35,947 nt of DNA. Source: Anaerolineae bacterium (GTDB taxonomy: Bacteria; Chloroflexota; Anaerolineae; Aggregatilineales; Phototrophicaceae). Numbering within the stretch: position 1 is the first letter of the stretch; each line of letters begins with the position of its first letter. The translations under genes and the position numbers were made by a program. Shown in pieces: positions 1,956 to 24,242 of this stretch. The stretch spans positions 1-35,947 of the forward strand of contig JAPKMU010000005.1 of NCBI GenBank assembly GCA_026645745.1, given 5' to 3'. A model generated the notes under the pieces. It had not been told where the DNA came from. It did not search any database and saw nothing but the letters and a program-made list of their open reading frames with translations.

Positions 1956-4412
1956 TTAGTTTTCCGTCTGATGTTTGTAGGCAAGTAATCGCAGCGCATT
2001 CCCAACCACAACCAGTGTGCTGCCCTCGTGTAAGACGACCGCGAAGCCAAGTTGGACGATCCCCAAGACTGAAGTGAGAATCAGCAAGGCGATTACACCC
2101 AGCGAAATCGTCAGATTCTGCTGAATAATCCTTCGACTGGCGCGGCTCAAGCCCACTGCGAACGGAAGTTTGCTCAAATCATCTGCCATCAGCGCCACAT
2201 CCGCCGTTTCGAGCGCGACTGCCGTCCCGGCTCCTCCCATCGCAATACCTACTGTCGCGCTTGCCAGCGCGGGTGCATCATTGACTCCATCACCGATCAT
2301 GGCGATGGCTTCATATTTCTCCTCCAGTTCCCTGATAATGTTGAGCTTATCTTCGGGCATGAGTTCTGCCTGCACTTCGGTTAGCCCCACTTCCGCCGCG
2401 ATGTTGCGCGCTACATCGTCGTTATCGCCGGTCAGCATCACTAGATGTCCGATGCCAAGTCCGCGCAGACTATTCATGATAGCTTTTACATTGGCGCGTG
2501 GAGTATCTGCCAGCCCAAGAATGCCTAATACGGTGCCATCCTTGCTCACCAGCATGGTCGTGCGTCCAGTTTTTTCCAGCTCGTCTACGCGCTGGATGAT
2601 TGAGTCGTCAACCGTCATCCCGGCAGTTTCTGTCAGCAATTTGGTTGATCCCACCAGAACCGCCGCGCCTTCCACGGTGCTGCGCACGCCGCGTCCGGGA
2701 ACATTCTCAAGATTCCCCGCTGGCGGAAGCTGAAGTCTCTTTTCCTGTGCCGCACGAACCACTGCCTGTGCCAGCGGGTGGTTCGACTGATGTTCAACCG
2801 CGCCCGCGATTCGTAGCAGGTCATCGGCCGTCCCGTTCAGGGGAACAACATCGGTCACGGTGAAAGTTCCGCTGGTGATGGTGCCCGTCTTGTCAAAGGC
2901 AATCGCTTGCAGTCTGCCGAGATTTTCCAGATGGACGCCGCCCTTGATCAGAACGCCGTTGCGTGCCGCCTGAGCGATACCCGCGAGGACGGAAGCCGGG
3001 GTGCCAATGGCAAGCGCACAGGGCGACGCGGCGACCAACAGCAGCATCCCGCGATAAAAGCTGTCTTGGAGGGTGAGCAGGTTGAACAGCGGTGGAATGA
3101 CGATCAGCAGCGCCGTTGCCACAAAGACGAGCGGCACAAGGCGGCTGGTGAAGCGATCCGCAAACTGCTGGGTCGGACTGCGCTGGCTCTGGGCTTCGGC
3201 AACCAACTTCATGACCCGACTCAAGGTGTTGTCCGCCGCTACGCGCGTCACCCGAATTTCAAGAGCATTATCCTTGTTGACCGTTCCCGCAAAGACTTCT
3301 TCGCCTTTGCCCTTCGTCACCGGAACACTTTCGCCCGTGATCGGACTCTGATCAATGGTGCTGCTGCCCTCAGCAATTTCGCCATCGACCGGTATACGAT
3401 CACCGGGGCGAGCGATCACCATATCGCCGATTTGCAGGTTTTCAACGGGTTCTTCAACGATCTGACCATCTCGCTTGACGCGCGCGGTCTTGGGCATAAG
3501 TTCACCAAGCGCGTTAATGGCGTTGCGTGCGCGATCCAGCGCGTAGTGTTCCCCGGCATGACCAATTGAGAACAGCAGAAGCAGAAACGCGCCTTCGCTC
3601 AGTTCGCCCAACGCTGCTGCCCCCGCTGCTGCCGCCAGCATGAGAATGTCGGTGTCGAGCTTGCCCTTGAAAAGTGCTGGGATTGCGTGAGTGGCAACAT
3701 CGTACCCGGCGGCAACATAGACGAGCGCGTACAAAGCATTGGCGACTGTTGGCGAAAATCCTAGAAAGCGCTCGCCTAACCAGCCGAGAAGAAAAAATAC
3801 AGCGGCGGCTCCCACCAAGATAAGCGTCCAGCGTTCTTGCATCCAATGCGGCAGGAACGCGGGTGCGCTGCCATGATCATGGTCGTGGTCTGATGCTGAG
3901 TCGTGATCGGCATCATGTGCGGCTTCATGCCCCGCAATGGACGCTTTGGGATCTCGCTTTTGAGCGGTTGACGTGATTACTCTTGCGCCCATCCCGCGAA
4001 TGGTTTGCTCGATTGTTTCTCTGCTTAAGACCTCTGTGTCGTAGGCGATGAACACCACTCCTGCCGCATAATTGACGTTGGAGTGCAGCACACCTTGTAG
4101 CCGCTCAAGCTGCCGACTCAAACTAAGTGCGGCATCCGCTGTGTCCAAGCCTGCGAAAGGAATTTGCTCGTGTCGGTAGCGCTGATGAATTTCTGCGCCG
4201 GCTTCTTTGGCAAGTCGCTGAACCGTTGCTAGGGAAACGAGGTTCGGATCATAGTGCAGACATAGTCGTGCAGTGCCGTTCTCACGAACGATGTGCGCTT
4301 TTTCCATCCCTCGCTGCTGCAATAAGCGGGTGGTCAGCATCGTGATGCACTCATCCGCGGCGTCAAGATCAGGCAGGATGACCGATAAATCCAGGCGCAC
4401 TTCTTGAGCCAT
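1956..4412 (-). CDS. P1B-4-type heavy-metal translocating ATPase
   Basis: This 818-residue metal-efflux ATPase has all P-type landmarks: T-G-E-S in the actuator domain, the phosphorylated Asp507 in D-K-T-G-T, H-P-L-A in the nucleotide domain and G-D-G-V-N-D-A-P. The membrane metal site reads S-P-C (463-465) with H-E-G-S-T in the last helices. That combination marks the P1B-4 group (CoaT/CtpD/PfeT), linked to Co(II), Fe(II) or Zn(II) export rather than Cu(I). The N-terminus has two ferredoxin-like segments resembling HMA domains but without C-x2-C, then a His/Asp-rich stretch (about residues 160-180) that may bind metal. ATG 4412 is preferred to an upstream ATG at 4508 because GAGGAG precedes it by 8 nt and the upstream ATG would lie inside the promoter. 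The gene heads the leftward operon under ArsR control. Confidence 0.92.
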   Translation of the reverse strand: MAQEVRLDLSVILPDLDAADECITMLTTRLLQQRGMEKAHIVRENGTARLCLHYDPNLVSLATVQRLAKEAGAEIHQRYRHEQIPFAGLDTADAALSLSRQLERLQGVLHSNVNYAAGVVFIAYDTEVLSRETIEQTIRGMGARVITSTAQKRDPKASIAGHEAAHDADHDSASDHDHDHGSAPAFLPHWMQERWTLILVGAAAVFFLLGWLGERFLGFSPTVANALYALVYVAAGYDVATHAIPALFKGKLDTDILMLAAAAGAAALGELSEGAFLLLLFSIGHAGEHYALDRARNAINALGELMPKTARVKRDGQIVEEPVENLQIGDMVIARPGDRIPVDGEIAEGSSTIDQSPITGESVPVTKGKGEEVFAGTVNKDNALEIRVTRVAADNTLSRVMKLVAEAQSQRSPTQQFADRFTSRLVPLVFVATALLIVIPPLFNLLTLQDSFYRGMLLLVAASPCALAIGTPASVLAGIAQAARNGVLIKGGVHLENLGRLQAIAFDKTGTITSGTFTVTDVVPLNGTADDLLRIAGAVEHQSNHPLAQAVVRAAQEKRLQLPPAGNLENVPGRGVRSTVEGAAVLVGSTKLLTETAGMTVDDSIIQRVDELEKTGRTTMLVSKDGTVLGILGLADTPRANVKAIMNSLRGLGIGHLVMLTGDNDDVARNIAAEVGLTEVQAELMPEDKLNIIRELEEKYEAIAMIGDGVNDAPALASATVGIAMGGAGTAVALETADVALMADDLSKLPFAVGLSRASRRIIQQNLTISLGVIALLILTSVLGIVQLGFAVVLHEGSTLVVVGNALRLLAYKHQTEN

Positions 4413-4456
4413 TAGGCTGCTCCTCAGGCAAATGCCTGCTAATTGCGACCTCGTAT

Positions 4457-4484
4457 CAATACATGAACACGTATTCATGTATTG
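4457..4484. promoter_or_regulatory. ArsR/SmtB-type operator (28-bp near-perfect palindrome)
   Basis: Two 11-bp arms, CAATACATGAA and TTCATGTATTG, are exact inverted repeats. The six bases between them (CACGTA) also pair around an ACGT centre except for one mismatch. The core TGAACACGTATTCA matches the 12-2-12 operator type known for SmtB, ZiaR, CzrA and relatives. It covers the -10 box and predicted start site of the ATPase promoter, so a bound apo-repressor would block polymerase. The regulator gene lies just upstream. Confidence 0.88.
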
Positions 4485-4508
4485 TAGCAAGAAAGAGAGA
4501 GTTGACAA
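4481..4508 (-). promoter_or_regulatory. Promoter of the metal-efflux operon
   Basis: On the minus strand a -35 box TTGTCA (4508-4503) and a -10 box TACAAT (4486-4481) are separated by 16 bp, each one mismatch from the sigma-70 consensus. The predicted start near 4474 falls inside the operator palindrome and gives a leader of about 60 nt before ATG 4412. The -35 box begins 4 bp after the ArsR stop codon, so the efflux operon has its own promoter. Confidence 0.75.
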
Positions 4509-4890: not shown

Positions 4891-4938
4891 ATACATGAAC
4901 ATGGATCGTATTTTAGTTGGGGAGGGTAGATGTGTCAA
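4891..4938 (-). promoter_or_regulatory. arsR promoter with second operator-like site
   Basis: On the minus strand TTGACA (4938-4933), a 17-bp spacer and TAAAAT (4915-4910) form a strong sigma-70 promoter pointing at the ArsR gene. Positions 4891-4906, just downstream of the -10 box, read ATACATGAACATGGAT. The first 11 bases are identical to a half-site of the main operator, and the element is itself a near-palindrome around CATG-AA-CATG. Weaker symmetry than the main site fits milder autorepression; that is inference. Confidence 0.68.
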
Positions 4939-4968
4939 ACCGACTCTACCAGCAAATTTAGCAAATGC

Positions 4969-4997
4969 TTGACATTATTTTTAGCCACATCTAAACT
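4969..4997 (+). promoter_or_regulatory. Promoter of the multicopper oxidase operon
   Basis: TTGACA at 4969-4974, a 17-bp spacer and TAAACT at 4992-4997 give a good sigma-70 promoter with a predicted start near 5004. It is back to back with the arsR promoter. Because it lies downstream of ATG 4930, it argues against that upstream start and for ATG 5041. No ArsR-type operator was seen over this promoter. Confidence 0.65.
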
Positions 4998-5040
4998 AAA
5001 CACAATCTTCTGCCAAAATTTCAGATTGAAAGACACCTGG

Positions 5041-6216
5041 ATGGACGACTCGTACCGCCACAAGATATCACGACGCCAAGCTCTAGGCGTAGGAATTGGT
5101 GGCAGTCTCAGCCTGCTGAGCGCTGCCCTACTTTCCCGTACTGCACAAGGGCAAGGCGATACCCCTAGTCCTACCCCGACCCATACGATGGAAGGGATGG
5201 AAACGTCGATGCCCAGCATGACACACGCCGGAATGAGTGCGATGCTCGTTGGTGCAGTTGATCACCAACGCAATGGTTTTGACCCCATGCAGATGCTCGT
5301 CGATTGGGATCACGGCACGTTGGCGGGCACAACCGAGGATGGTCGCCCGATCCGCGAGTACAGCGTATCAGCCGGAGACATCGAGATCGAGATTGCGCCG
5401 GGAATCTTCTTCCCTGCATGGGCATACAATGGTCGTGTCCCCGGACCAAGCATCCGTTGCAACGAGAATGATCATCTGCGCATCGACTTCGCCAACTTCG
5501 GTACGCATCCTCATACGATGCACTTTCACGGGTTTCATCGCGCAGAAATGGATGGCGTGGAAGGTGAATATCGCGGAGCGATCAATCCGGGTGAGCAGTT
5601 CACCTACGAATTCGATGCCGATCCGTTTGGCTGCCATCTCTATCACTGCCACGCCGCGCCGCTCAAACGGCACATTCACAAAGGGATGTACGGCGCGTTC
5701 ATCGTCGATCCGCTGGCAGGTCGTCCGCCTGCCCGTGAATTCATGATGATCATGAATGCTTTCGATACTAATTTCGACGGTGGTAACGAGGTTTACGCGG
5801 TCAATACAGTGGGGCATGAATTTATGCGCCGACCTATTCCGATTAAAGTCGGGGAAGTCGTCCGCATATACCTGATCAATATCGTCGAGTTCGACCTGAT
5901 CAACTCGTTCCACCTGCACGCCCATTTTTTCAATTACTATGACACCGGCACAACACTTGAACCGACACTCCGCACGGTCGATACCATTATGCAGGCACAA
6001 GGGCAGCGTGGCATTCTCGAATTTCGACCACGCTATCCGGGACGGTATATGTTCCATGCCCATGTTAGCGAGTTTGCCGAACTCGGGTGGATGGGCTTTT
6101 TCAACGCCGTCAACGAAGCAGATTATCCGGCGGCGCTGAGGGAAGTCGGCTTGGATGAAGAATGGGACTTCAAATCACTGAACGGCACCGCCGCAAGTCA
6201 AACGGAGGGAAGCTAA
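5041..6216 (+). CDS. Tat-exported two-domain multicopper oxidase
   Basis: The 391-residue protein starts with a Tat-type signal (S-R-R-Q-A-L-G at residues 10-16, then a hydrophobic stretch), followed by a linker rich in Met and His (about 48-68) that may bind copper. Two cupredoxin domains follow. Domain 1 has H-P-H-T-M-H-F-H (156-163) and Y-H-C-H (201-204), then H211 and M216. By alignment with NirK, the type 1 copper would be held by H158, C203, H211 and M216. Domain 2 has H-L-H-A-H (291-295) and F-H-A-H (338-341) but no Cys, so it offers trinuclear-cluster ligands only. One type 1 site, in domain 1, fits the type C two-domain oxidases. Likely activities are Cu(I), Mn(II) or phenol oxidation; a nitrite reductase is less likely because of the extra domain 2 histidines. 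It leads an operon with the ZIP gene. Confidence 0.88.
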   Translation: MDDSYRHKISRRQALGVGIGGSLSLLSAALLSRTAQGQGDTPSPTPTHTMEGMETSMPSMTHAGMSAMLVGAVDHQRNGFDPMQMLVDWDHGTLAGTTEDGRPIREYSVSAGDIEIEIAPGIFFPAWAYNGRVPGPSIRCNENDHLRIDFANFGTHPHTMHFHGFHRAEMDGVEGEYRGAINPGEQFTYEFDADPFGCHLYHCHAAPLKRHIHKGMYGAFIVDPLAGRPPAREFMMIMNAFDTNFDGGNEVYAVNTVGHEFMRRPIPIKVGEVVRIYLINIVEFDLINSFHLHAHFFNYYDTGTTLEPTLRTVDTIMQAQGQRGILEFRPRYPGRYMFHAHVSEFAELGWMGFFNAVNEADYPAALREVGLDEEWDFKSLNGTAASQTEGS

Positions 6217-8683: not shown

Positions 8684-9559
8684 TTGTCTGATTCAATACT
8701 CCCAACCCGAGAACCGTCACAAACTCCTTTTGAGCGTATCCGCCAAGTCGATGACGACGGCATCGAATTCTGGTCGGCACGCGACCTGATGCCAGTTCTC
8801 GAATATACCAAGTGGCAAAACTTCAAAACGGTTCTGATCAGGGCACAAATCGCTTGTGAAAACAGCGGTCACGATCCGGCTAACCATTTTACCGGAGCCA
8901 GTAAAATGGTCGCCCTTGGTTCGGATGCCAAACGTGAAGTCGAAGATATGCACCTCTCACGCTACGCCTGCTATCTGATCGTCCAGAATGCCGACCCTGC
9001 CAAAGAAGTCGTCGCGCTTGGTCAAACCTATTTTGCAGTGCAAACCCGCCGTCAAGAGATTTCCGATGCAGCAGCACTGGCTGAACTGACCGAGGAGCAG
9101 CGGCGACTGCTGCTGCGCCAGCGTATCAAGTTGCAGAACACGGATCTCGCGTCCGCTGCGAAAAATGCAGGCGTGATCACCGGACAAGACTTTGCGGTGT
9201 TCCAGAATCACGGCTATCGAGGTCTCTACAACGGTTTGACGGCAGAAGCCATTCACAAGCGCAAAAAGCTGAAGAAAAGTCAGCATATCCTCGATCACAT
9301 GGGGACAACCGAGTTGGCAGCAAACCTGTTTCGCAGCACACAGGCGGAAGAGAAGCTGCGTCGTGACCAAGTTCAGGGCAAGGATGCGGCGAACGCCGTA
9401 CATTATGAGGCAGGTGTCGTTGTTCGCCGCGCGATTGCTGAACTCGGCGGCACTATGCCGGAAGACCTGCCTACAGCGGAGAGTATTAAGAAACTGGAGC
9501 GTGCGGAGAAGAAGCGACTTGCTCCTCCTAAGAAAATGAAGAAAGATGGCGAAACATAG
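8684..9559 (+). CDS. dinD: DinD-like DNA-damage-inducible protein
   Basis: The 291-residue protein resembles E. coli DinD along its length. The N-terminal BRO/DinD-type region has I-E-F-W-S-A-R-D-L-M-P-V-L-E-Y and W-Q-N-F, then H-L-S-R-Y-A-C-Y-L-I-V-Q-N, A-L-G-Q-T-Y-F-A-V-Q-T-R and F-Q-N-H-G-Y-R-G-L-Y-N-G-L. The C-terminus is Lys-rich. In E. coli DinD is LexA-controlled and affects RecA filaments. TTG 8684 is chosen over ATG 8663 because GGAGGTGA (8672-8679) ends at a proper distance from the TTG, while the ATG has no ribosome site and would contain the Shine-Dalgarno in its own codons. No SOS box could be identified with confidence. Homologues are often carried on mobile DNA, and it borders the replication block. 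Confidence 0.85.
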   Translation: MSDSILPTREPSQTPFERIRQVDDDGIEFWSARDLMPVLEYTKWQNFKTVLIRAQIACENSGHDPANHFTGASKMVALGSDAKREVEDMHLSRYACYLIVQNADPAKEVVALGQTYFAVQTRRQEISDAAALAELTEEQRRLLLRQRIKLQNTDLASAAKNAGVITGQDFAVFQNHGYRGLYNGLTAEAIHKRKKLKKSQHILDHMGTTELAANLFRSTQAEEKLRRDQVQGKDAANAVHYEAGVVVRRAIAELGGTMPEDLPTAESIKKLERAEKKRLAPPKKMKKDGET

Positions 9560-9565
9560 AATTAT

Positions 9566-9590
9566 CGAAGCCCCACACACGGGGACTTCG
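9566..9590. terminator. Possible hairpin terminator between convergent genes
   Basis: CGAAG-CCCC, a 6-nt loop (ACACAC), then GGGG and CTTCG form a 9-bp stem with one bulged A. It starts 7 bp after the dinD stop and lies between convergent genes. No T-run follows on either strand, so it may be a weak or factor-assisted terminator. Confidence 0.42.
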
Positions 9591-9615
9591 AGGTTCAGTC
9601 ACCAGCACGGCTGAC

Positions 9616-10083
9616 TTATCGACTCAACTCGACTGCAACGGGAATCCCTTCTGCATGAAAGAACAGCGTGAGCCGTTCAATCTCCGCTTTCCCGATGACA
9701 CTTTTCGAGACTCGTATCCCCCGTTCATCGACGTACTCGAAGCTGAGCCGTTTGACCCCGCCCTGCGGTCCGACGACTTTCACCACCTGCGTGGCGCTTT
9801 TCAAGGGTGCTAATGCTGCCTCTGCGGAGGTGCGGTACTGCCCAACGGTGAATTGAAAAAAGTCACTGCGCATTGTCCCGCGCCACTGCCCCATCACCGG
9901 CGTGTCGTCCGGGAACGAGAGCAGTTCGTGAGCATGATCGAGCAAGCGGATCTGTACGGTATCCTCGGTTGCGATGAACACCAGCCGCGGCGTATGATTG
10001 AGCCGTTCCGCCGTGAACACATCGCTCAGGTTGAAAAACTCGTCTACGTCCTTGCGTCCGGCGGTCACGATTTGAGTTGTCAT
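9616..10083 (-). CDS. Protein of unknown function in replication block
   Basis: I do not recognise this 155-residue protein. It has no signal peptide or membrane segment and looks soluble. A central part (W-R-G-T-M-R-S-D-F-F-Q-F and T-S-A-E-A-A-L-A) is followed by a predicted beta-rich C-terminal half, with V-K-V-V-G-P-Q-G-G-V-K-R-L-S-F-E-Y near its start. The ATG overlaps the primase stop by ATGA, and GGAG lies 7 nt upstream inside the primase end, so it should be translated together with the primase. Tight coupling suggests an accessory role in replication, such as a primase partner or single-strand binding; this is inference from position only. Confidence 0.7.
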   Translation of the reverse strand: MTTQIVTAGRKDVDEFFNLSDVFTAERLNHTPRLVFIATEDTVQIRLLDHAHELLSFPDDTPVMGQWRGTMRSDFFQFTVGQYRTSAEAALAPLKSATQVVKVVGPQGGVKRLSFEYVDERGIRVSKSVIGKAEIERLTLFFHAEGIPVAVELSR

Positions 10084-11087
10084 GATCTCACTCCTTCACT
10101 GATCACGTTTTGAAGCCATTCCTTCACTGTGTTTTCGCCTGCCTGCTGATAGAACTCGCTCAGGTCTTTGCCGCTCGGCACTTGCACGCACTTGACGGCC
10201 CTAGATAACGCCGCGATCTGTGCCGCCGCGCCTGCACCAGCTTCATCGGCATCCATACAGGCGATCACGCGCGGAACACCCAGCAGCGTCCCATACCAGC
10301 GGCGGTCAATACGGGCATAGCTGGCACTGCCGATTGCCGCTGCTCGCGCGAAGTCGCCGCTAATCTGCCAGGCGATCAGCGCGTCGAACTCGCCTTCGGT
10401 GATAATGAGCGGCGTTCGCGGCAGAACGTGATCCGCCAGATACAGGCAGCCGCGAATATTGCCACCGCTCACCTGCTGGTAACGCTGCTCGCCCGCCGCA
10501 CGGCGAACCTTGATCCCCCAGACCTCATCATCGACGATCCAAGGGATGAGAATGCCGCACGGCACATTCAAGCCGTCGATCTCCCGCCATGCTGTTGGCG
10601 CGCCCGGGAGGTATCCCAGTTGAGTGAGTTCGATGATCTTCTCGCTCAAGCCGCGCTCCCAGACCAGATAACCCCACGCGCGCTGCCCTTCTGGCGACCA
10701 TAAGCGTTCACGCGCCTCGTCGATGACGCGCCGCGCTTTCGCCTGCCACTCAGCATCCGGAGGTTGCGCGATAGGTTCGGGCGCACGGCGCGTAACGTTC
10801 AGAGTTTCGATCTGCGGCAGATCGCCGTTTGCCAGTCGTTCGCACGCCTCCTGAAACGTTAGTTGGTGGTAGTGCTGCACCCACGCGATGGCATCGCCAC
10901 CAGTGTGACACTTGCCGAAACAGCGCCAGTGCTGGGCGTAGACCACAAGTGAAAAGCCTTTGTGTTCGCTGTGCAGCGGGCACTTAAAAGCGGCATAGTC
11001 CCGCCCCCGAAAGCGCGGTTTGCCGAGATCGCGCTCAACGAGCTGGCGCAGGTCGAGCTGCGCTTTGAGTTTCTCTACATCAATCAT
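10080..11087 (-). CDS. Plasmid/phage-type DNA primase (CHC2 zinc finger plus Toprim)
   Basis: The 335-residue protein begins with a DnaG-like CHC2 zinc finger: C36, H39, C56 and C60 (C-x2-H-x16-C-x3-C), followed by G-G-D-A-I-A-W-V. A central region (about 100-220) leads to a Toprim domain with I-I-T-E-G-E-F-D-A (catalytic Glu232) and M-D-A-D-E-A-G (D279, D281). There is no helicase domain, and it is much shorter than chromosomal DnaG (about 600 residues), which points to a mobile-element primase. ATG 11087 is preferred to TTG 11105 because GGGAGGT lies 7 nt before it. The stop overlaps the next gene by ATGA. Upstream lies a cluster of 9-bp repeats that may control it or act in replication. 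Confidence 0.9.
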   Translation of the reverse strand: MIDVEKLKAQLDLRQLVERDLGKPRFRGRDYAAFKCPLHSEHKGFSLVVYAQHWRCFGKCHTGGDAIAWVQHYHQLTFQEACERLANGDLPQIETLNVTRRAPEPIAQPPDAEWQAKARRVIDEARERLWSPEGQRAWGYLVWERGLSEKIIELTQLGYLPGAPTAWREIDGLNVPCGILIPWIVDDEVWGIKVRRAAGEQRYQQVSGGNIRGCLYLADHVLPRTPLIITEGEFDALIAWQISGDFARAAAIGSASYARIDRRWYGTLLGVPRVIACMDADEAGAGAAAQIAALSRAVKCVQVPSGKDLSEFYQQAGENTVKEWLQNVISEGVRS

Positions 11088-11108
11088 GCTGCCGACCTCC
11101 CCCAAAGA

Positions 11109-11305
11109 ATTTCGTCAGTGCTGTGACGAAATGCCAAAATTCGGTATTCTGTCATTTCGTCATTTCGTCATCGCGGTGTCGAAATTGTCGTGCTGGGCGG
11201 TTTTCCCCTCAGCATAGCGGCTAGATTTCGTCACGCGCCCTCGAAATCCCTGTCATCATCCCCGTTTTGAGGCGGGGAATTATGGCAAAGCCGCTATGAC
11301 GAAAT
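11109..11305. repeat. Six copies of the 9-bp repeat ATTTCGTCA (iteron-like cluster)
   Basis: Exact copies of ATTTCGTCA lie at 11109-11117, 11154-11162, 11162-11170 and 11225-11233 on the plus strand, and at 11124-11132 and 11297-11305 on the minus strand. The first two form an inverted repeat with a 6-bp spacer, and the middle two are direct repeats sharing one base. The last sits in the final codons of the DUF3987 gene. A 10-bp inverted repeat, CATAGCGGCT (11213-11222) and AGCCGCTATG (11289-11298), frames the right half. By chance fewer than 0.01 copies would be expected in 200 bp. Iterons of a replication origin or operators of a repressor upstream of the primase are both possible. Confidence 0.85.
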
Positions 11306-12922
11306 GATCGGGGTCGGTCGATAGCCTTTTGACGGACGACCCGCGCCTGTACCTTTTCGCTCGATGACCTCAATCACGCCATCCTCGACCAGTGCCGCCA
11401 GTGTCGCATCGATTTCTTTGCGCGACTTCACCCCGGCACCGCGCAGGATGTCCCGCGCTGACGGGGGTCGCTCCCCATGGCGCGCGATGAAGTCCAGCAC
11501 CTTCTTCTCGTTCTTCACATCTACACCGATGCTCAGCTCGTCGAGCAGGCGATGCACCGATGCGCGATACTCCTCAGCGAGCATCTCTCCGCGCGCCCAA
11601 TGCGCTGTCGTAATGCGCGGTGCGTTGTGCATCCCCTCATCTGTCCAATCCATAATTGCCAGAATCAGCGCCAGCTTGAGCGCCATCGTCGAGAAGCGTC
11701 CGTAGTTCCCACGCAAACGGTCATCGAGGTTGCGGCGGGGGTCGGTCATGTCGTGCAGCGCGGCGTAGTAGGCGTTGAACAGGTCAAAGACCGCTGGTTC
11801 CATCGTCGCGCCGATAGCGGGATGCTTGACCGGTTCATCGAGATCGTGGAGCGCGAACTCGTCAGGTGGCATCGGGAAGGCGTTGTACACGCGCAACAGC
11901 CGCGTTTTCAGGTCGGGCGGAAACTCGTGTGTATCGAGGTTGTGTCCGTTCAGCACGCACTTGATTTCGCGCTCGGTCGGAGTCAGGCACAAAAAACGCG
12001 CCATCAAGCCATCCTCCCACTCGCCGTCAGTGATGTAACGCCCCAAGCGAGCGGGCGTGGTCGCGCCGATCATCGCCAGCGCTGGGTTGTAGACGATCAG
12101 TTTGCCATCGCCGCGCAGCTCACGTTCCAAACGACGGGGTGCATCGAACATTTCCATCATCGTTTCGGTGTGTCCCTCCATGTACTTCTTCGGGATCAGC
12201 ATCTTGCTCGCCTCGTCTATGAGGATGCCACGCTGACCGGCGAAACGGGCGGCGAGGTCTTCGTTCCGCTGCTCGAACGGCAGCAGTTTTTCATAGTTGG
12301 ACGGTTTTTCACCTGCGAGCTTGGCGACCAGCATTTCGGGCGAAGTGGTGGCGGGCAGTAGGAGATGAGGCATCGTGTCCCGCACCATGTCGGTGATCGC
12401 GTTCAGCCCAGTCGATTTGTGATAGTAGGTCGTCGGCGCGACCCACAGGTAGTACAGGTTCGGGTAAATATCCCCGAACCCCAAGCGCAGCACGCAGCGC
12501 CGTGCGACTGCCAGCCCGACTGCCCACAGCGGTCCTGACTCCAAGAAGATGCGCGGCGTCATCGGTGAGCGCTGGCTCAACCACGCGAGGCAGTCACGGT
12601 GAAACGCGCCGACAGTTTCCGCCGATGCCATGAGTTTGTCGGTCAACTGCGCCGCCTTGGGGAGCGGCGGCACATAGGCTTCTTCTGACGATTGACTCGA
12701 CGTCGGCACCGGGGCGTTGGGATCGATGCGCAAGACCTGTGCGCTCAACTCAGGATCACGGGTCAAAATCTGCTGCAAGATCGACCAGTGCGTGCGATCA
12801 TGTCGCCAATCGAGCGATGCCAGCAGTGACTCAACCAGTGGGCTGAGGGTCAATCCGGCGGGAATATCCAGCATCGATACGGCGCGCCGCAGCGCATACG
12901 CATCGTGTTCGTTCAGGTTCAT
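11294..12922 (-). CDS. DUF3987-like replication ATPase with C-terminal winged helix
   Basis: This 542-residue protein resembles the DUF3987 family of phage and plasmid replication ATPases. A P-loop-like segment at about 161-172 reads V-A-P-T-T-Y-Y-H-K-S-T-G (Gly of the usual GKS replaced by His) and a Walker B-like I-L-I-D-E-A-S-K-M-L follows at about 235-244. A later part contains A-M-I-G-A-T-T-P-A-R-L and L-M-A-R-F-L-C-L, typical of the family. The last 80 residues predict a winged-helix DNA-binding domain (K-K-V-L-D-F-I-A-R-H to E-R-K-G-T-G). ATG 12922 is preferred to the upstream 12964 start because GGGAG lies 9 nt before it. The family is usually encoded beside Toprim primases, as here. 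The exact reaction (helicase, loader or initiator) is not known. Confidence 0.75.
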   Translation of the reverse strand: MNLNEHDAYALRRAVSMLDIPAGLTLSPLVESLLASLDWRHDRTHWSILQQILTRDPELSAQVLRIDPNAPVPTSSQSSEEAYVPPLPKAAQLTDKLMASAETVGAFHRDCLAWLSQRSPMTPRIFLESGPLWAVGLAVARRCVLRLGFGDIYPNLYYLWVAPTTYYHKSTGLNAITDMVRDTMPHLLLPATTSPEMLVAKLAGEKPSNYEKLLPFEQRNEDLAARFAGQRGILIDEASKMLIPKKYMEGHTETMMEMFDAPRRLERELRGDGKLIVYNPALAMIGATTPARLGRYITDGEWEDGLMARFLCLTPTEREIKCVLNGHNLDTHEFPPDLKTRLLRVYNAFPMPPDEFALHDLDEPVKHPAIGATMEPAVFDLFNAYYAALHDMTDPRRNLDDRLRGNYGRFSTMALKLALILAIMDWTDEGMHNAPRITTAHWARGEMLAEEYRASVHRLLDELSIGVDVKNEKKVLDFIARHGERPPSARDILRGAGVKSRKEIDATLAALVEDGVIEVIERKGTGAGRPSKGYRPTPIISS

Positions 12923-12964
12923 GGTGACAAGCTCCCAAGCAAGACTGAATAGAACTCGTGTCAA

Positions 12965-13132
12965 AAAACACGGTTTGATGTGGGGAATTCAGTTGCACAT
13001 GGGGGTAGGCTGTGATACATTGTGAGTGTCCAGTTCACCATGTATCCCATGCCGCCGCCCACGCGCCTCATCAGCAGTGGGCATTTTCTTTTCTAGGGCG
13101 GAGAGCGTGATTGTGTTTTCATGTTAGTCCTC
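12965..13132. other. Structured intergenic region with two hairpins
   Basis: The gap between the DUF3987 and ParB genes holds a 12-bp inverted repeat with one mismatch (13014-13025 against 13035-13046; core ATACAT and ATGTAT) and a second 6-bp hairpin GCCCAC/GTGGGC (13057-13062 and 13077-13082) followed on the plus strand by ATTTTCTTTT. Read rightward this looks like a small structured transcript ending in a terminator; read leftward it would be a structured leader of the DUF3987 gene. A weak plus-strand promoter (TTGCAC 12993-12998, 17 bp, TACATT) overlaps the first arm. No convincing protein gene was found. Confidence 0.4.
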
Positions 13133-13158
13133 AAAAGGTTCGCCCGGGCGAACCTTTT
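13133..13158. terminator. Perfect 26-bp palindrome at end of par operon, probable terminator
   Basis: AAAAGGTTCGCCC followed by its exact reverse complement forms a perfect palindrome whose edge is part of the ParB stop codon. On the minus strand the stem ends in four T residues, so it can act as an intrinsic terminator of parAB. Because the symmetry is perfect through the centre, a protein-binding site such as a centromere-like element is a second possibility. It does not match the chromosomal parS consensus. Confidence 0.65.
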
Positions 13159-14359
13159 ATTCATCGGTGAGATAGCGCTCAGTGTCAGTGATGAATTTCC
13201 GCATTGCCTGCAAACGGGCGCGAGCAATATTCGCATCCCCTTCTTGGAGCATAAGCGCGCGCGCTAACTCTTGTGGTGAGGTCGCGGTGATAGTTTGAGC
13301 GACTTTCGCCACTTTGAGTGCAGCAGGCGACAGTCTTTCGATAGGGTCTTCATCGGCATCCGTCACAGGGTCCCCCTCGCATAATTCCTTGACCTGCTTA
13401 CTCGTCAAGTTGAAGTCCACGATCTGACGGACAATTTCAGCATGGTATTCGGAAGAAACTGTGGTGATATAGCGCAGTTTCTTTTCTTCGATATCGTAGC
13501 GATCTGCAAGCTCAAGTGCTTCATCTGACAGGCGCAACAGCCCTTTTATCGTGCTGAAATGACCTTTCTTGATACCGCCCATCGCACTCAGAATTGCTTC
13601 GGTATACTCACGCTTGGCGCGTAGGTCGAGATTGAGCGCTTGACGATAGAAATCATTTCCGACCGCGTAGGCGGGGATCTCGTAACCATGAACGGTAAGC
13701 AATAGCAATGCTGCCTGCCGTGCTAGCGCAACAGCCGTCAACCCAGAGCGCACGGTGTTCTCTTTCGCCTGACGAAAAACGGATGAGCGGTTTGCCGGGA
13801 TGATGATGCACGGGATCATGCCATCGCCCGTATAGCTGGGGATGAAGTCGCGCAGCAGCCATGTCGCCCAGTAACGGCGCTCGCCCGTCTCAATCCGAAA
13901 GAGACGAGTTACGCCCTGACTGACGTCCACGACTGTAAGCGGGTTGACCTGTCCGTCATCGCGGATGGTGATCGCCAGATTGACCAGATCGCGCAGCAGT
14001 GTTTCTTCTGGCGACAGATTGACCGCTGGTTCATCCTCGCGCTCATCGTCGCCATTCGGCAGCAGTTCGAGGACATTGTTGAACGGTCGTCCGCGCTGTC
14101 GCGCTGCGATTTGCACGATCTGCACCAGTTCGCGCAGTGCTTGCGTCGGTGTCACGCGGTTGTTGTGAAAATTCAGATGAATGCTCTCTGGCAGCACCCG
14201 GCGCGGCTGCACCGGATCAGGGCGCACCATCTCCAGCAAGATACGTTCGACACGGATTGAATTGTCCGTGAATGCCTGCGGCAGATCACCGAGCAGATCG
14301 CCAGTGACGGACGCGAGTAGATCATCCACCCGACTGGTATTGCCGTTCGCCCGCGCCAT
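13157..14359 (-). CDS. parB: ParB/Spo0J-family partition protein
   Basis: This 400-residue protein has a ParB N-terminal domain split by extra sequence. V-R-P-D-P-V-Q-P-R-R-V-L-P (about 45-57) is the first conserved box; after about 75 residues come D-D-G-Q-V-N-P-L-T-V-V and the R-I-E-T-G-E-R-R-Y-W-A box, then A-K-E-N-T-V-R-S-G-L-T-A-V-A-L-A-R-Q, the expected run into the helix-turn-helix. The G-E-R-R box takes part in CTP binding in studied ParB proteins. The C-terminal part (about 260-400) is helical and acidic. The ATG overlaps the ParA stop by one base (TAATG). The insertion, rich in acidic and polar residues around position 100, is not found in chromosomal ParB and suggests a plasmid or element type. 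The DNA target is unknown. Confidence 0.88.
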   Translation of the reverse strand: MARANGNTSRVDDLLASVTGDLLGDLPQAFTDNSIRVERILLEMVRPDPVQPRRVLPESIHLNFHNNRVTPTQALRELVQIVQIAARQRGRPFNNVLELLPNGDDEREDEPAVNLSPEETLLRDLVNLAITIRDDGQVNPLTVVDVSQGVTRLFRIETGERRYWATWLLRDFIPSYTGDGMIPCIIIPANRSSVFRQAKENTVRSGLTAVALARQAALLLLTVHGYEIPAYAVGNDFYRQALNLDLRAKREYTEAILSAMGGIKKGHFSTIKGLLRLSDEALELADRYDIEEKKLRYITTVSSEYHAEIVRQIVDFNLTSKQVKELCEGDPVTDADEDPIERLSPAALKVAKVAQTITATSPQELARALMLQEGDANIARARLQAMRKFITDTERYLTDE

Positions 14360-15183
14360 TATTCGATGCCCTTCGACAAATAACGTACGAGTGAAGCGAC
14401 GACTTGAGCATAGGCTTTGCTCGCTGAGGCACGCGGATCGTAGCTGAATAAGCTTTGATGGTTTCGATGGGCATACGACACCGCTTCATTGGCGGGAATC
14501 ACACCAAGTAAAAGTTTGCCCAACACCGGATGCGACTTGAGTTCTGCCAGTAAATGACTGTGACCCCGAATGCGGTTATCCATCTTGGTGACGATCAGCC
14601 CGCTGACGCGCAGGTTCGGATGTCGCCAGCCATCACGGATGTCGTTGATCTTCTGAATGACGCTCGTTAGACCAACCGTTTCCAAGTAGCGTGGTTCGAC
14701 AGGGACAATCGCATCTGATCCGGCGAGCAGTCCCATTTCTGTCATCAGCGAAAAAGAAGGACGAGTGTCGATGATGACCGCCGCATACTGGTTCGCGATC
14801 TTGCTGAGGGGATCGGCGAGACGATAGGGTGCGCCTGCCACGCCCATCAATTCCCGCTCAGCACCTTCGAGCATGGGGGAGGCAGGGAGAACATGCAGGT
14901 TTTCATCCCATGTCGAGGGCACAATGCAATTCATGAGTGTCTGCGGCGCGTTTTGCCGATCTGCCATCAGCACGGTGTACAGGCTGTCATCGGTGCCGTA
15001 GTCCTTGCGACCGGTCGTCACCAGCGACGCATGTCCCTGTGAGTCGGTGTCGATGAGCAGCACGCGGCAGTTCGACGCATTGGCACGGCGGAGCATTCCG
15101 GTGATGCCAAACGCGATGTTGGTGGCGGATGTCGATTTGCCGACACCCCCTTTGTGGTTGGTGAAAACGAAAACGCGAGTCAT
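14359..15183 (-). CDS. parA: ParA-family partition ATPase
   Basis: The 274-residue protein is a Walker-type ParA/MinD ATPase. The deviant Walker A motif N-H-K-G-G-V-G-K-S-T is at about residues 9-18, with the signature Lys. Walker A' follows as V-L-L-I-D-T-D-S-Q-G-H-A (about 42-53), then Y-A-A-V-I-I-D-T-R-P-S-F, and V-S-G-L-I-V-T-K-M-D-N-R in the C-terminal half. It lacks an N-terminal DNA-binding extension, so it is the short (type Ib or chromosomal-like) form. ATG 15183 is chosen over ATG 15189 because AAAGGG sits at a normal distance from it. With parB it should segregate the replicon or element that carries the DUF3987-primase block. No gidA, rnpA or dnaA neighbours are seen, so this is not the usual oriC par locus. 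Confidence 0.92.
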   Translation of the reverse strand: MTRVFVFTNHKGGVGKSTSATNIAFGITGMLRRANASNCRVLLIDTDSQGHASLVTTGRKDYGTDDSLYTVLMADRQNAPQTLMNCIVPSTWDENLHVLPASPMLEGAERELMGVAGAPYRLADPLSKIANQYAAVIIDTRPSFSLMTEMGLLAGSDAIVPVEPRYLETVGLTSVIQKINDIRDGWRHPNLRVSGLIVTKMDNRIRGHSHLLAELKSHPVLGKLLLGVIPANEAVSYAHRNHQSLFSYDPRASASKAYAQVVASLVRYLSKGIE

Positions 15184-15469
15184 TGCCATTCCCTTTCAAA
15201 ATCCAACGAACCGTCGATTTCGCTGTGGCTGGCAAAGACTTCTCAAAGGTGGTGTAAACTCTCTGAGGGAGCTTTGCTGGCACGGGCAGCGAGCTTCAAG
15301 GTGACTGGGGGAGGGTTCAGGCTCTCCCTTTCACCGCAAAAGCCGAATGTCGTCAGATCAGACAGGAAAGCGGTTGTATACGCTTAGGATAGGCGATTGA
15401 AGAAAGAAATTGAGCGAGGCTCAGTTGTGCGTGGTGTTCGGATTGAGTGCAATCAGTGGAGACAGAAAG
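15184..15469. other. Region upstream of parA, no gene seen; hairpin at 15300-15335
   Basis: No convincing coding region is present. The clearest structure is an interrupted hairpin at 15300-15335: outer arms GGTGA and TCACC, inner arms GGGAG and CTCCC as read on the minus strand. A weak 12-bp palindrome (GTCAGATCAGAC) follows near 15353. Such elements upstream of parAB could be partition or regulatory sites, but nothing matches a known family. No clear parA promoter was recognised. Confidence 0.35.
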
Positions 15470-15504
15470 AAAAAGCCCTTGAGATAGTTCTCAAGGGCTT
15501 TTTT
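15470..15504. terminator. Strong bidirectional intrinsic terminator
   Basis: A 15-bp stem, AAAAAGCCCTTGAGA against TCTCAAGGGCTTTTT, encloses a 4-nt loop (TAGT), and the plus strand continues with a run of T. The minus strand also ends in T5 before CTTTC. It can stop the leftward kinase transcript before it reaches parAB, and any rightward transcript from upstream of parA. Positions 15505-15662 hold no recognisable gene. Confidence 0.9.
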
Positions 15505-15662
15505 CTTGCATGGCTGACGACTAGAGGCTGTTCTCCAAGTGTGCCGCAAACGCGCGCCAGCACTCCAAAAGCGTATTGTCACGGAGAATAACCGACGGGT
15601 CGCGTTAAGCTGCCTTGCGGAGTGCATCCGTGATACAGTCGATGTGCGCGGGTCAGTGAGTA

Positions 15663-16643
15663 TCAGTCATCAGGCAGGGTATAGCTTAATGTTGCCCATC
15701 CCGCATGAATGCGCGCCAAAGTAGCATGCCACGATTGAACACCACTTGCTGCGTCGGCAGATTCGACATTGAATGCGCCGACTGCACAGGTAAAACGAAG
15801 CGCTTCTTCAGGTGAAAGTCCGCGCAGCAGTGCCGCCAAAAACCCAGCATAGGCACAATCACCCGCGCCGATCGTACCGACAACATTGACTTGAAACGCG
15901 GGATGCCAGAGTTCAAGATTCTGCCACTGATCAGCCGATAATCCGAGCGGTGCTAAACGTGCAAAAGCACGTCGATCCATGTGCGTTTTTAGATAAAAGC
16001 CGTATTCGCCTAATTTGAAGCCCGCAATGACTACGCCCATCGTCAACAATTCATCTGCCAATGTTCGTAGGTACGCCCGACTCAGATGTGCCAGCACATC
16101 CCCGTGCCAGCGATTATAATCGTCGCGGCGCAGCATAAACACGATTTCTTCCACACTGGGCAGAAATATATCGACATAAGGCAGTACCTGTCTAAGCACA
16201 TGAACCCAATTGACTTGACCGCTGGCACCGCCGGGATCAGGATGGGTCATGTCAAGCGAAGTAACCACGCCGGACTCATGCACGCGACGGAAAATCGCCG
16301 TCAGGGATGCGCCGTTATTGGCGTATAACCTCGGTAGAAGCGGCGGGTAGCCCAAATGAAACAGTTTTGCCTGCTGCACCACTTCAAAATCTACGTCTGC
16401 GAGATCAAAGTGTGTGTTATTGCCGGAACAGTGCAGGATGATTCGATCCGCATTGTTGGGGGTCAAAATGACGGAGTAGGAGCTTGATTCGCCGGGGCGA
16501 AGTTTGATCAATTCGCTCAGTTTAGGGTCGCAGTCTTTCAGTTTGGCAATAATCACCCGTCCGAGCAGGTCATCGCCCACGCTGGTCATCAAGCCGACCT
16601 GAGCGCCGAGGCGGTGCAGTGCTGTTCCGGTATTTGAGACAGC
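15663..16643 (-). pseudogene. PfkB-family carbohydrate kinase, 5' end missing
   Basis: The frame encodes a PfkB (ribokinase) sugar kinase from A-V-S-N-T-G-T-A-L-H-R-L-G onward. The catalytic and anion-hole motif G-T-I-G-A-G-D-C-A-Y-A-G-F is intact near the C-terminus (Asp as base). About 40 N-terminal residues normally containing the first strand and the G-G motif are absent. Upstream of 16643 the frame runs on only as antisense of the ABC transporter fragment and has no native start; TTG 16592 and the ATG after it lie inside the conserved domain. The remaining part shows no internal stop or frameshift over 326 codons, so the loss is recent or an assembly artefact. The substrate is unknown. 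If functional it would need a start within the domain, which is unlikely. Confidence 0.75.
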
Positions 16644-18789: not shown

Positions 18790-21700
18790 TTAGAACTGCG
18801 CGCGAATCTCGCGTTCGATCTGCGCGATATCTGTACCGTAACGCTCACGGCTCATCTGGCGGATCATCTCACCGATCAACGGGTTGGGCGTTTGCGACGG
18901 GAGCAGCGTTCGCATCGTAAACGCCCGCGCGCCGATCCCGTTGACCAGCAGCTTGACCGACGCAGTGAACTGCCCCAACTCGATCAAGTCCTCCGCGCTG
19001 AATACCGGATGATATTCCGGCGCAAGCGCGGGTGCATCCTGCACGCCGATTCGGAAGGTGATCAGGCTGCCGACGTTGCCAAACACTGCCTCGCGGATTC
19101 CGTGATCCAATTGGTGTAGGAATTGGTTCGCCAGCACGAGCGACACACCGAACTTGCGCCCCTCGCTGATCATCGTACCGAGAAGCGGGGTACTGTAATT
19201 CTGCACTTCGTCAATGTAGATATAGAAATCGCGGCGCTGTGCGGGCGCAAGTTTGCTGCGCTGGAAGGCGGCTTGAAGCAAGTCACCAAGGATCAGCAAG
19301 CCGAGAAATTGGCTCGTCTCTGTGCCGATCTTGCCCTTCGCCAGATTGCACAACACAATCTTGCCGTCGCTCATCACATCGCGCCAAGGAACGCTGCTGC
19401 GCGGCTGACCGAGAATCCGTCGCAAGATCGAGTCTTCGACAAAGCGGCTGAATTTGCTCAACAGGTAGGGCAGCAGTTCGGCACGCCACTGCGCGCTCGC
19501 ATTTTCGGTCTTGCTGGCGATGTCTTCCCAGAAGTTTTTGACAATCGGATCGCCAATGCGGGGCAGAATCCGCCGCACGTAATTCTGATCTGACAGAATG
19601 CGATACACATCGATCAGTGTCCCGCCTTCGATCCACATCGCGGCAAGCATCGCGTTGCGGACGAACTGCTGAAAGATCGGACCGACAATCCCTTGATTGT
19701 ACGGATCGTACATGCGGATCAGCATACCGATAAAGTCGTTCGTGATGCGGTGGCGATCCGCTTCGCTCTGCGGATTCAGAATATTCAACCCGATGGGGCG
19801 ATCCTCGTCCGATGGATCGATCAAAATCACATCCTCGGCGCGGTGCTGCGGAATACGCATCAGCACATCTTCCACAAGGTCGCCGTGCGGATCGAGCAGG
19901 AATACCCCATATCCGGCTTCAATATCTTGCAGCACCATCGATGCGATCAGCGTGGATTTGCCCATGCCCGTTTTGCCGACGATGTACGAATGGCGGCGGC
20001 GGTCATCGCGCGATTGGCGAATCAGCGCGGGAATGCTCGTGCCCGTGCGCGCCGTGCTCACGCCTAAAACCGTTCCGTTGTCCGGCATCCCAACCGGGGG
20101 CGCGATTGGCTTTCCATCCAACAAACGCATCCCCGGCACGCCCGTAAAGTGCGGGATCGGCAGGCGAAAGACGTGTGTCGCTTCGGCTTCACCGACCAAA
20201 TAGCGTAGGCGGCGCATCCCGTCAGGCGCATGGGTGTATCCCCACGCTTCGACATCAATTTGATGCAGATTGCGGCGCGCGGTTTCAAATTCCTGTCCGC
20301 GCAGTGCGCGCATAATCTCATACCCGCCGTTTTCGCCGTTGTCGCGCATCGGACCCAAAAATGCCGATGCGATCATTTCGGGGAGCAGTTTGCTTGTTCC
20401 AGTGTGACCGGCGACATTCAAGCGCACCAAGAACGCCGAGCGCAGATAGCTTAAGCGGATAAAATGTTCGCGCGAACGCTCCATCTGACTAATCTGATTC
20501 AGGCGAGACATCATAGCGGGAGCGTTAAAACCTTCCGGCGTGACGGGCTGTTCGCCTTCCCAAATTTGTACCTGCTTCGCGTATGATGTCGCATCGGACG
20601 CTGTATCGGTGTACATCGCGGCACTGCGCTCCCAACTGTAGAGTTGGGTCGGCTTCAGGTGAATACTCAGCATGGACGGCTTTTCCTGCCGCAGCATCAC
20701 CCAGAGCATGTTGTGTAAGTCCATCGAACCGGGCATGAACGAAGCGACGGTATACATGCCGCTGCTTTCCGGCGCGGTTTCGCGGCGCACGATTTCCGCC
20801 GCGTGATCGATCTCGAACGGTTCAAGCAGGGATACGAGTTCCGACTGATCCGCGACGGCTTCAAAGATGTACACCCCATCTTGAGTCAGCGGCAGCGCGG
20901 CGCGAAGATCATGCCAAAGTTCGGCAGCTTGCGCGTGGCACTGTTCGGCGGTCTCCGCACCGACGCGCACCAAGAAGGCAATTTTGATCTGCCCGCGTTC
21001 GGCGATCTGGGGATGCGGAATGGCGATGAAGCGAAGCGCAAAGGTCACATCGTACAAGAGTTCGCGGAATGCGCCTAACACCTGCACAAACTCGAATGCT
21101 GCCATCAGCAGCCGGTTCGACCATGCCTCCGGGTGCATGTGCGGTCGCCCGACTTCGCGCACAACAATTGCGAACGAGGCGTGATAATACGCGGATACGC
21201 CCTTGCGCATCAGCGTATCTTCGATCACGCGTGCGTCCACCTGCTCAACGTTCAAATACGGCTGCCCGCGCTTGCGGCGCTCCACCCGTTCGAGTGCGGC
21301 GCGCACTTCCGCGTCATCGTGGGCGGCTTCGAGCACGCTGCGCGCCCCGGTTAAGTCCCAGCGCTTTTCGAGCAGCGCGGCAATCCCCTTGCGCGCCGCC
21401 TGAACCGTCTCCCGATCCGCGTTCGTGGCGACAAGGCGATAAAAGTCATCGAGCGCGGGTGCATCGTGTCCCGCCAGCATACGCGCTTTGGCGCGAAGCA
21501 GGATCAACGCGTCGGACGGCTCCAGCTCCATTGCGCCGGAAATCGTACCAATTGCGCCTTCCGCGTCGTTGGAGTCCAACTGCGCGTGAGCCGTTGCAAT
21601 CGCATCATCGACAACAGCGCGCACAGCGGTTTCGAGATCAAGCGACAGCTTTTTCGCCGCGCGCGGCAGCGTTCCATCGGCGAACGAAGCCTTCATCACC

Positions 21701-23151: not shown

Positions 23152-23237
23152 CTCCGCTTCCTCCTTCAGTATGGGTGAGCGCGCCTTGATTACTGCTACA
23201 CATACTATGGCACTTCATTCCCTGTTGTAGACCAAAA

Positions 23238-23264
23238 ATGAGTGGTTTATGAGAAACCATTCAT
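23238..23264. promoter_or_regulatory. Operator-like inverted repeat between divergent genes
   Basis: ATGAGTGGTTT (23238-23248) and AAACCATTCAT (23254-23264) form an 11-bp inverted repeat with one mismatch and a 5-bp spacer. It lies in the 194-bp gap between the large ATPase and the sigma-like gene, nearer the latter. It could bind the HTH part of the TIR protein or a repressor. No strong sigma-70 promoter was seen for either gene in this gap. Confidence 0.5.
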
Positions 23265-23345
23265 CATGGGGCTACGTCGCGCAGATAATGACCTATAGAG
23301 TCAAGGTTACACCGGGGTGAGCTTCACTGGAGCGAGAGGAACAGC

Positions 23346-24221: not shown

Positions 24222-24242
24222 GATGCCCGAGGGTTTCATTCC

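Follow-up and report, generated by a model that had tools for sequence, protein, structure and literature searches.

A probable iteron-type replication origin downstream of a DUF3987 gene in a Chloroflexota genome

We find that a dense cluster of short repeats in an Anaerolineae-type Chloroflexota genome is probably an iteron-type replication origin, read by the winged helix that ends the protein of the adjoining DUF3987 gene, a putative initiator helicase. The window, that is the whole 35,947-nucleotide stretch analysed here, holds a module of about 5.8 kb composed of parA, a parB-like gene, the gene for a DUF3987 ATPase with a predicted C-terminal winged helix, the repeat array and a CHC2/Toprim primase gene. 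The module lies on the minus strand throughout and its order of transcription is ParA, ParB-like protein, DUF3987 protein, array, primase and a 155-aa protein (Table 1).

The scheme we infer, in which origin activity, binding, helicase activity, opening and priming would all have a part, is that of a self-replicating, partitioned, plasmid-like or integrative replicon. The initiator would be the DUF3987 protein encoded directly upstream, whose C-terminal winged helix would bind the ATTTCGTCA boxes; several monomers on close direct and inverted boxes might nucleate a helicase oligomer, which would open the AT-rich core and then load. The CHC2/Toprim primase encoded beside the array would prime the opened strands, and the ParA and ParB-like proteins would segregate the replicon copies. 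An iteron origin is ordinary in principle; unusual are a DUF3987 initiator, a DnaG-like primase, a Chloroflexota host and a visible code between wing and word.

Table 1. Features of the module in the window (positions in the window; a dot marks a feature without strand)
Feature	Position	Strand	Basis or remark
Iteron box 1, inverted copy closest to the ribosome-binding site of the primase	11109..11117	+	Kept in 6/6 close loci
Iteron box 2	11124..11132	-	Exact copy; close-locus comparison
Iteron box 3, tandem with box 4, 8-bp spacing	11154..11162	+	Exact copy; close-locus comparison
Iteron box 4	11162..11170	+	Exact copy; close-locus comparison
Iteron box 5	11225..11233	+	Only box varying among close relatives; changed in L082, L086
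Iteron box 6, inside last DUF3987 codons	11297..11305	-	Exact copy
Candidate origin core: boxes 1-4 and degenerate GGCA/GTCA boxes between them	11109..11170	.	GC 0.403
Predicted C-terminal winged helix, residues 482-550 (wing 531-550 = 11315-11374)	11315..11521	-	AF2; structure alignment
ParA partition ATPase	14359..15189	-	Pfam AAA_31 E 6.9e-32; PHROG ParA-like
ParB-like protein, 400 aa	13157..14359	-	Order after ParA; ParB-type sequence motifs
DUF3987 ATPase/putative initiator helicase	11294..12964	-	Pfam DUF3987 E 4.7e-12; PHROG primase/helicase matches; alignments
CHC2/Toprim (DnaG-like) primase	10080..11105	-	Domain scan; synteny
155-aa protein after primase, no assigned function, inside conserved module	9616..10083	-	ORF; conserved module
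Module extent common with relative L082, flanks unrelated	9563..15346	.	One alignment, 84%
Palindrome, 26 bp, perfect, at parB end; candidate ParB site or terminator	13133..13158	.	Sequence
Leader mini-ORF MKTQSRSPP-stop, 9 codons; candidate ribosome-arrest leader upstream of initiator gene	13093..13122	-	Sequence
Hairpin P1 (GCCCAC/GTGGGC), 13 nt after leader Pro-Pro codons	13057..13082	-	Fold
Second leader hairpin (GATACAT/ATGTATC)	13014..13046	-	Sequence; formed in several relatives

The array and the module in the window

Against the six exact copies of ATTTCGTCA, chance would place 0.39 in the window, and 100 dinucleotide shuffles never produced six. Boxes 1 and 2 form an inverted pair, boxes 3 and 4 overlap by one base, and the farthest copy lies within the 3' end of the DUF3987 gene (stop codon 11294-11296), the other five falling in the gap between that gene and the primase. 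The original prediction, made from the letters of the window, thus described the cluster accurately in its copy number within 200 bp, its arrangement, its reach into coding sequence and its excess over chance. Genome-wide, a count which that prediction had proposed, the 9-mer occurs 115 times in 5.66 Mb (about once per 49 kb), as compared to 29 for a reversed control pattern; among the matches listed (100 of 115) the two tightest pairs are separated by 242 and 339 bp, and no second cluster was seen. The tandem double box TGACGAAATGACGAAAT, at up to two mismatches, has no further copy anywhere in the genome. The mild over-representation of the 9-mer is what a chance or low-complexity cluster, or the residue of an unrelated repeat, would have in its favour; we give this reading a negligible probability, and the shuffles, the conservation of the box columns in relatives and the repeats at related loci described below rule out a chance cluster.

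Multiple short direct and inverted repeats beside the putative initiator gene are accompanied by an AT-rich region of a type that may unwind: the GC content of the core is 0.403 versus 0.576 for the module, the minimum GC for any 50-mer in the module is shared by the one beginning at 11108, and in 40 of 41 loci the gap is lower in GC than its locus. No DnaA box with at most one mismatch was found between 8.5 and 16.5 kb, and an Rfam search of 9500-15700 at a lax threshold returned only two matches, far below the gathering score. GC skew, another check put forward with the original prediction, was tabulated and makes no sharp switch at 11.2 kb.

The DUF3987 match (PF13148) scores 46.2 bits versus a cut-off of 27, above the gathering score, and a Pfam scan of the protein found this domain and LexA_DNA_bind only. 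An initiator of the Rep_3 type, as in classical iteron plasmids (Rep_3/RepA-pi), was considered and rejected, no such domain appearing in that scan. Residues K183, D250 and E251 are conserved in 22/22 aligned rows and fit an ATPase. The AF2 model of the whole protein has a mean pLDDT of 41.8 and only its winged helix is usable; because the ATPase body is not confidently modelled, the helicase fold rests on the Pfam and PHROG matches and on the published prediction, in the excerpt used here, that DUF3987 is a helicase of mobile elements (PMC5862659). The winged-helix block reaches pLDDT 67-85 and aligns to winged-helix DNA-binding proteins with a VIA-align Z of about 10, while a profile search of the PDB gave weak winged-helix matches only. 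On this model the C-terminal domain is a winged helix, and it is predicted to bind DNA.

The protein likely starts at the ATG at 12922 (MNLNEHD), and the primase likely at the ATG at 11087 (MIDVEK). The 400-aa protein has no Pfam match; we take it to be ParB-like, partly from sequence motifs of the ParB type. At the module edges, L080 aligns in pieces with differing flanks, and the junctions inspected show no terminal inverted repeats. Roughly 150 bp ahead of parA (15190-15348) are conserved in paralogs, with homology ending near 15346-15348 in several; candidate readings of this stretch are a module edge, a leader RNA or a centromere. The flanking genes in the window are metal-handling, sugar and Mrp-antiporter genes, and the 30 ORFs scanned there include no recombinase.

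Arrays in related loci and the wing

That related loci might have no repeats in this gap had been named as an outcome that would count against the prediction, and it did not arise. Immediately past the DUF3987 stop codon, 45 of 53 loci have significant short repeats (p<0.05; p<0.01 in 42 of them), the remaining eight being L078, L085, L075, L090, L102, L134, L138 and L149. In control regions the counts were 2/27 after primase genes, 0/7 after recombinases, 0/2 after prim-pol, 3/17 after parA and 14/19 after parB, the last because a separate palindrome is located there. By eye, most arrays have in common a core of some three boxes in tandem, spaced 7-8 bp apart, together with a short spacer and a single inverted box just ahead of the ribosome-binding site of the next gene. 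Their boxes have GTCA or GGCA as the last letters; those in front differ by lineage, giving the words ATTTCGTCA, ACTTTCGTCA, ACTTTCGGCA, AATTGTCA, TTTTGTCA, AACCTGTCA, GTCGG and others; for instance, the paralog on contig C354 of the same genome has six ACTTTCGTC in the corresponding gap. Distant homologs from other classes of the phylum have repeats there too, such as the GTGTCA boxes in L028 and L030-L032. Exceptions are L090 (no array), L088 (no GTCA-type array) and L011 (a different word).

Box columns are also the better conserved part of the gap. In the ATTTCG group of six loci, 2 of 44 noncoding box columns vary versus 46 of 167 others (p=4e-4), and in the ACTTTCG group of three loci 2 of 52 versus 59 of 163 (p=7e-7); the columns were set on one reference sequence, a slight bias in their favour.

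Alternatively, the array might be an operator only, through which the DUF3987 protein or another regulator controls transcription of the primase or downstream genes, with no origin present. It does lie just upstream of the primase ribosome-binding site, and autoregulation is common among initiators, which often act as both initiator and regulator. The array is kept, however, where the downstream gene differs (L079, L105-L107, L109-L111, L113, L114, L116), six to nine boxes running back into the upstream gene exceed what an operator needs, the core is AT-rich and, weak evidence in itself, a sigma-70 scan found no promoter-like site in the gap between the DUF3987 gene and the primase. We regard an operator without an origin as unlikely. 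The original prediction had offered a replication origin or an operator array; the first of these is well supported by where the array lies, by its conservation, by its recurrence in relatives and by the way its word covaries with the initiator's winged helix (below), and the second, for the downstream gene, may hold as well.

A further alternative is a centromere (parS) bound by the ParB-like protein, given that a parAB-like pair belongs to the same module and that tandem repeats of 7-8 bp, like those seen here, are typical of some centromere-binding proteins. Arrays are nevertheless present at loci with no parAB in the fetched stretch (e.g., L087, L089, L092-L094, L096, L099), L012 and L013, which pair parAB with another replication gene, show no dense 8-mer array, and the conserved palindrome that follows parB makes a better centromere candidate, so that we consider this reading quite improbable. 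It is the persistence of the array with the DUF3987 gene despite changed neighbours, together with the AT-rich core and a layout like that of SaPI and SCC elements, that commits us to an iteron origin served by an initiator helicase as the probable reading.

If the winged helix reads the boxes, wing and word would be expected to covary. L077 (winged helix lost to a frameshift), L097 (read in the wrong frame), L108, L112, L117 and L118 (truncated, partial or frameshifted) and same-locus duplicates were dropped from the DUF3987 comparisons; L088 and L090, having no GTCA-type array, were left out of the covariation tests and kept among the 53 repeat loci. The protein in the window has a wing of the GAGRPSKGY type and that of C354 one of the TGGRSA type. 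In an initial set of 27 loci, the TGGRSA wing always goes with the word ACTTTYG and the KPG.SE wing with AATTGKC, and phylogenetically independent pairs on the 27-row tree were concordant in 3/3 and 2/2 cases, which is below significance. Applied unsupervised to the full set of 40 loci, a partial Mantel test did not set the wing apart (0.31, with many windows at 0.25-0.39 and the primase at 0.22-0.38). A test on close pairs, chosen after that result, took pairs with body divergence below 15% (97 pairs of 31 loci); winged-helix windows here gave a partial r of 0.79-0.83 with box distance, versus a median of 0.04 for DUF3987 windows, with a within-clade permutation p of 0.0005-0.001. On the identical 92 pairs for all windows, the wing stood at 0.81 and the primase N-terminus at 0.24 at most.

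The primase start is equally near the array, so simple linkage is insufficient to account for the correlation of wing and word, though some linkage remains because the 3' end of the DUF3987 gene takes in the outermost box. The wing, besides, changes faster than any other window. Among close relatives, then, the box word appears to track only the winged helix, which points to binding only indirectly. That the partner of the array is probably this winged helix and not the primase goes beyond the original prediction, as do a lineage-specific box word, a putative origin downstream of its initiator gene and a recurring module of mobile-replicon type. We speculate that wing and downstream iteron word form a swappable code: since they change together, each element would keep its own origin in genomes holding several. 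Pairs of wing and box would then offer a ready-made natural experiment on what decides the word that a winged helix picks and what keeps sister replicons from cross-talk.

A short RxPP leader ahead of the replication gene

Three elements stand between parB and the replication gene: a palindrome, which measures 26 bp in the window, a ribosome-binding site and a mini-ORF. Palindromes of other sequence occupy the same place in relatives, and the core of the palindrome in the window is unique in the genome. We collected 38 distinct regions in which parB aligned to residue 380 or beyond, and R-x-P-P was present in all 38, 37 of them by an automatic pattern and L171 (RGPP), missed by the pattern owing to its longer ORF, by eye. 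L090, not among the 38, has a distant parB-like neighbour without an RxPP leader. The x residue is S in 18, A in 11, G in 4, D in 4 and P in 1, and the codon after the motif is a stop in 23 of the 38. Arg, x and Pro are encoded by many synonymous codons, serine by those of both its families, a pattern that speaks for selection on the peptide. The gene that follows could be assigned in 36 of the 38 cases and is a CHC2 primase of an 863-aa type in 19, DUF3987 in 14 and prim-pol in 3.

The GCCCAC/GTGGGC hairpin, sought by one search pattern, begins 12-16 nt after the Pro-Pro codons in 26 leaders and was not found in the other 12. Leader folds were inspected sequence by sequence; the stretch in the window itself folds with a pairing other than GATACAT/ATGTATC, and an RNAalifold consensus for the 38 aligned leaders has only three base pairs and no usable score.

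In the excerpts used here, arrest is established for the motifs RAPP and RGPP, and RSPP and RDPP are permissive for it (PMC12992588; related arrest-peptide papers are PMC10987492 and PMC10951233). The S, A, G and D found at x thus include the published stalling or arrest-permissive residues, and the single P (L177) is outside that set. As in the RAPP-type arrest peptides (ApdA, ApdP, ApcA, SecM-like), a short upstream ORF has R-x-P-P near its end; unlike them, the leaders here are mostly 6-12 codons long, too short to contain an export signal, and stand upstream of replication genes. On these grounds we propose the RxPP leader as a candidate ribosome-arrest leader, with stalling predicted from its sequence. 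Such a minimal leader might gate initiation, and it stands before three unrelated kinds of replication gene.

A literature search listed no report of an RxPP-type leader before replication genes of mobile elements, and the leader peptide is potentially more novel than the iteron origin. If true, it would extend ribosome-arrest control to mobile-element replication and tie the start of that replication to a ribosome-stalling sensor. For the two proposals jointly, an integrative replicon family with a swappable wing/iteron code whose initiation is gated by a minimal RxPP arrest leader, we judge the chances to be evenly balanced. At L012 and L013 the same parAB and leader are joined to prim-pol instead, an instance of module swapping within one genome.

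Distribution and resemblance to known replicons

Homologs of the DUF3987 protein turned up in 26 of 98 family genomes, in 45 of 154 from the order (profile search) and in 10 of 301 drawn across the phylum, and the named relatives are Aggregatilineales/Anaerolineae MAGs. The genome of the window has a second full set, split between contig C354 and contig C378, a DUF3987-primase pair on C649 that is more distant, and two parAB sets (C410, C420) in which a 732-aa gene, read from its sequence as a probable prim-pol, replaces DUF3987. A single 5.63-Mb contig (G357) carries four DUF3987 copies in one closed chromosome. Large serine recombinases adjoin the module in several relatives (Pfam for three representatives; ten cluster members), which makes integrative elements the likely carriers; SCC elements have serine recombinases as well, and these relatives resemble them in this respect. 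The phage and plasmid records and IMG/VR yielded no relatives of the DUF3987 protein, so that the autonomy of the element is something we infer and do not see directly.

Satellite phage P4 fuses all functions and in RSF1010 iteron binding sits in a separate protein; here, by contrast, helicase and iteron reader are apparently fused and the primase is separate. The following comparisons draw on excerpts of the cited papers. With P4 alpha and RSF1010 RepA/RepB'/RepC the module shares an element-encoded helicase, a primase and, putatively, iteron recognition (partly PMC4234260). In SaPI and SCC elements the C-terminal domain of the helicase binds iterons downstream of its own gene (PMC7581432), and the module is like SaPI Rep and SCCmec Cch2 in having an initiator helicase with a C-terminal dsDNA-binding domain (predicted here), a primase encoded nearby, and boxes directly downstream of the putative initiator-helicase gene. 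It differs from them in that the helicase domain is DUF3987 and not DUF927 or D5/Primase_Cterm, the primase is of the CHC2/Toprim type and neither AEP (SaPI) nor CCPol-MP, parAB is present, and the host is a member of the Chloroflexota. pRN1 ORF904 is likewise a replication protein with a C-terminal winged helix, and a region downstream of its gene is required (PMC4234260); unlike the module here, pRN1 has a stem-loop without iterons and a fused prim-pol. Fusions of DUF3987 to archaeo-eukaryotic primases (AEP) share the predicted helicase of mobile elements, whereas here a stand-alone DUF3987-winged-helix protein lies beside a DnaG-like primase; the excerpt of PMC5862659 on DUF3987 describes no origin or DNA word.

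Among the papers searched we found none joining DUF3987 with an iteron, or Anaerolineae with iterons. If our reading is right, DUF3987 proteins, until now no more than predicted helicases in the excerpts used, would be origin-binding initiators with a readable DNA code, and the arrays would bring to light a class of replicons, partitioned and often linked to recombinases, that is widespread in the Chloroflexota.

Several minor observations concern individual copies. At L077 (G357, 4.29 Mb) DUF3987 is frameshifted before the wing and the array is still present; this is a decaying replicon. L040 (JAHHHY010000010.1), the same as L080, is on a contig labelled Pleurocapsa minor whose sequence matches a genome in the genus of the window, likely a mislabelled record. 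Near the module in the window are genes for a copper-type P-type ATPase (1956-4508), a copper chaperone (287-850) and a multicopper oxidase (4930-6216), and next to the C378 copy, too, lies a P-type ATPase belonging to that cluster (L010 1430-3550). At 18790-24992 the window encodes a TIR protein and a HerA/TrwB-like ATPase of 1453 aa, and beside the C649 copy (L011 9614-13816) is a 1400-aa protein with, by eye, a TIR and an FtsK-like part; these are possible defence genes.
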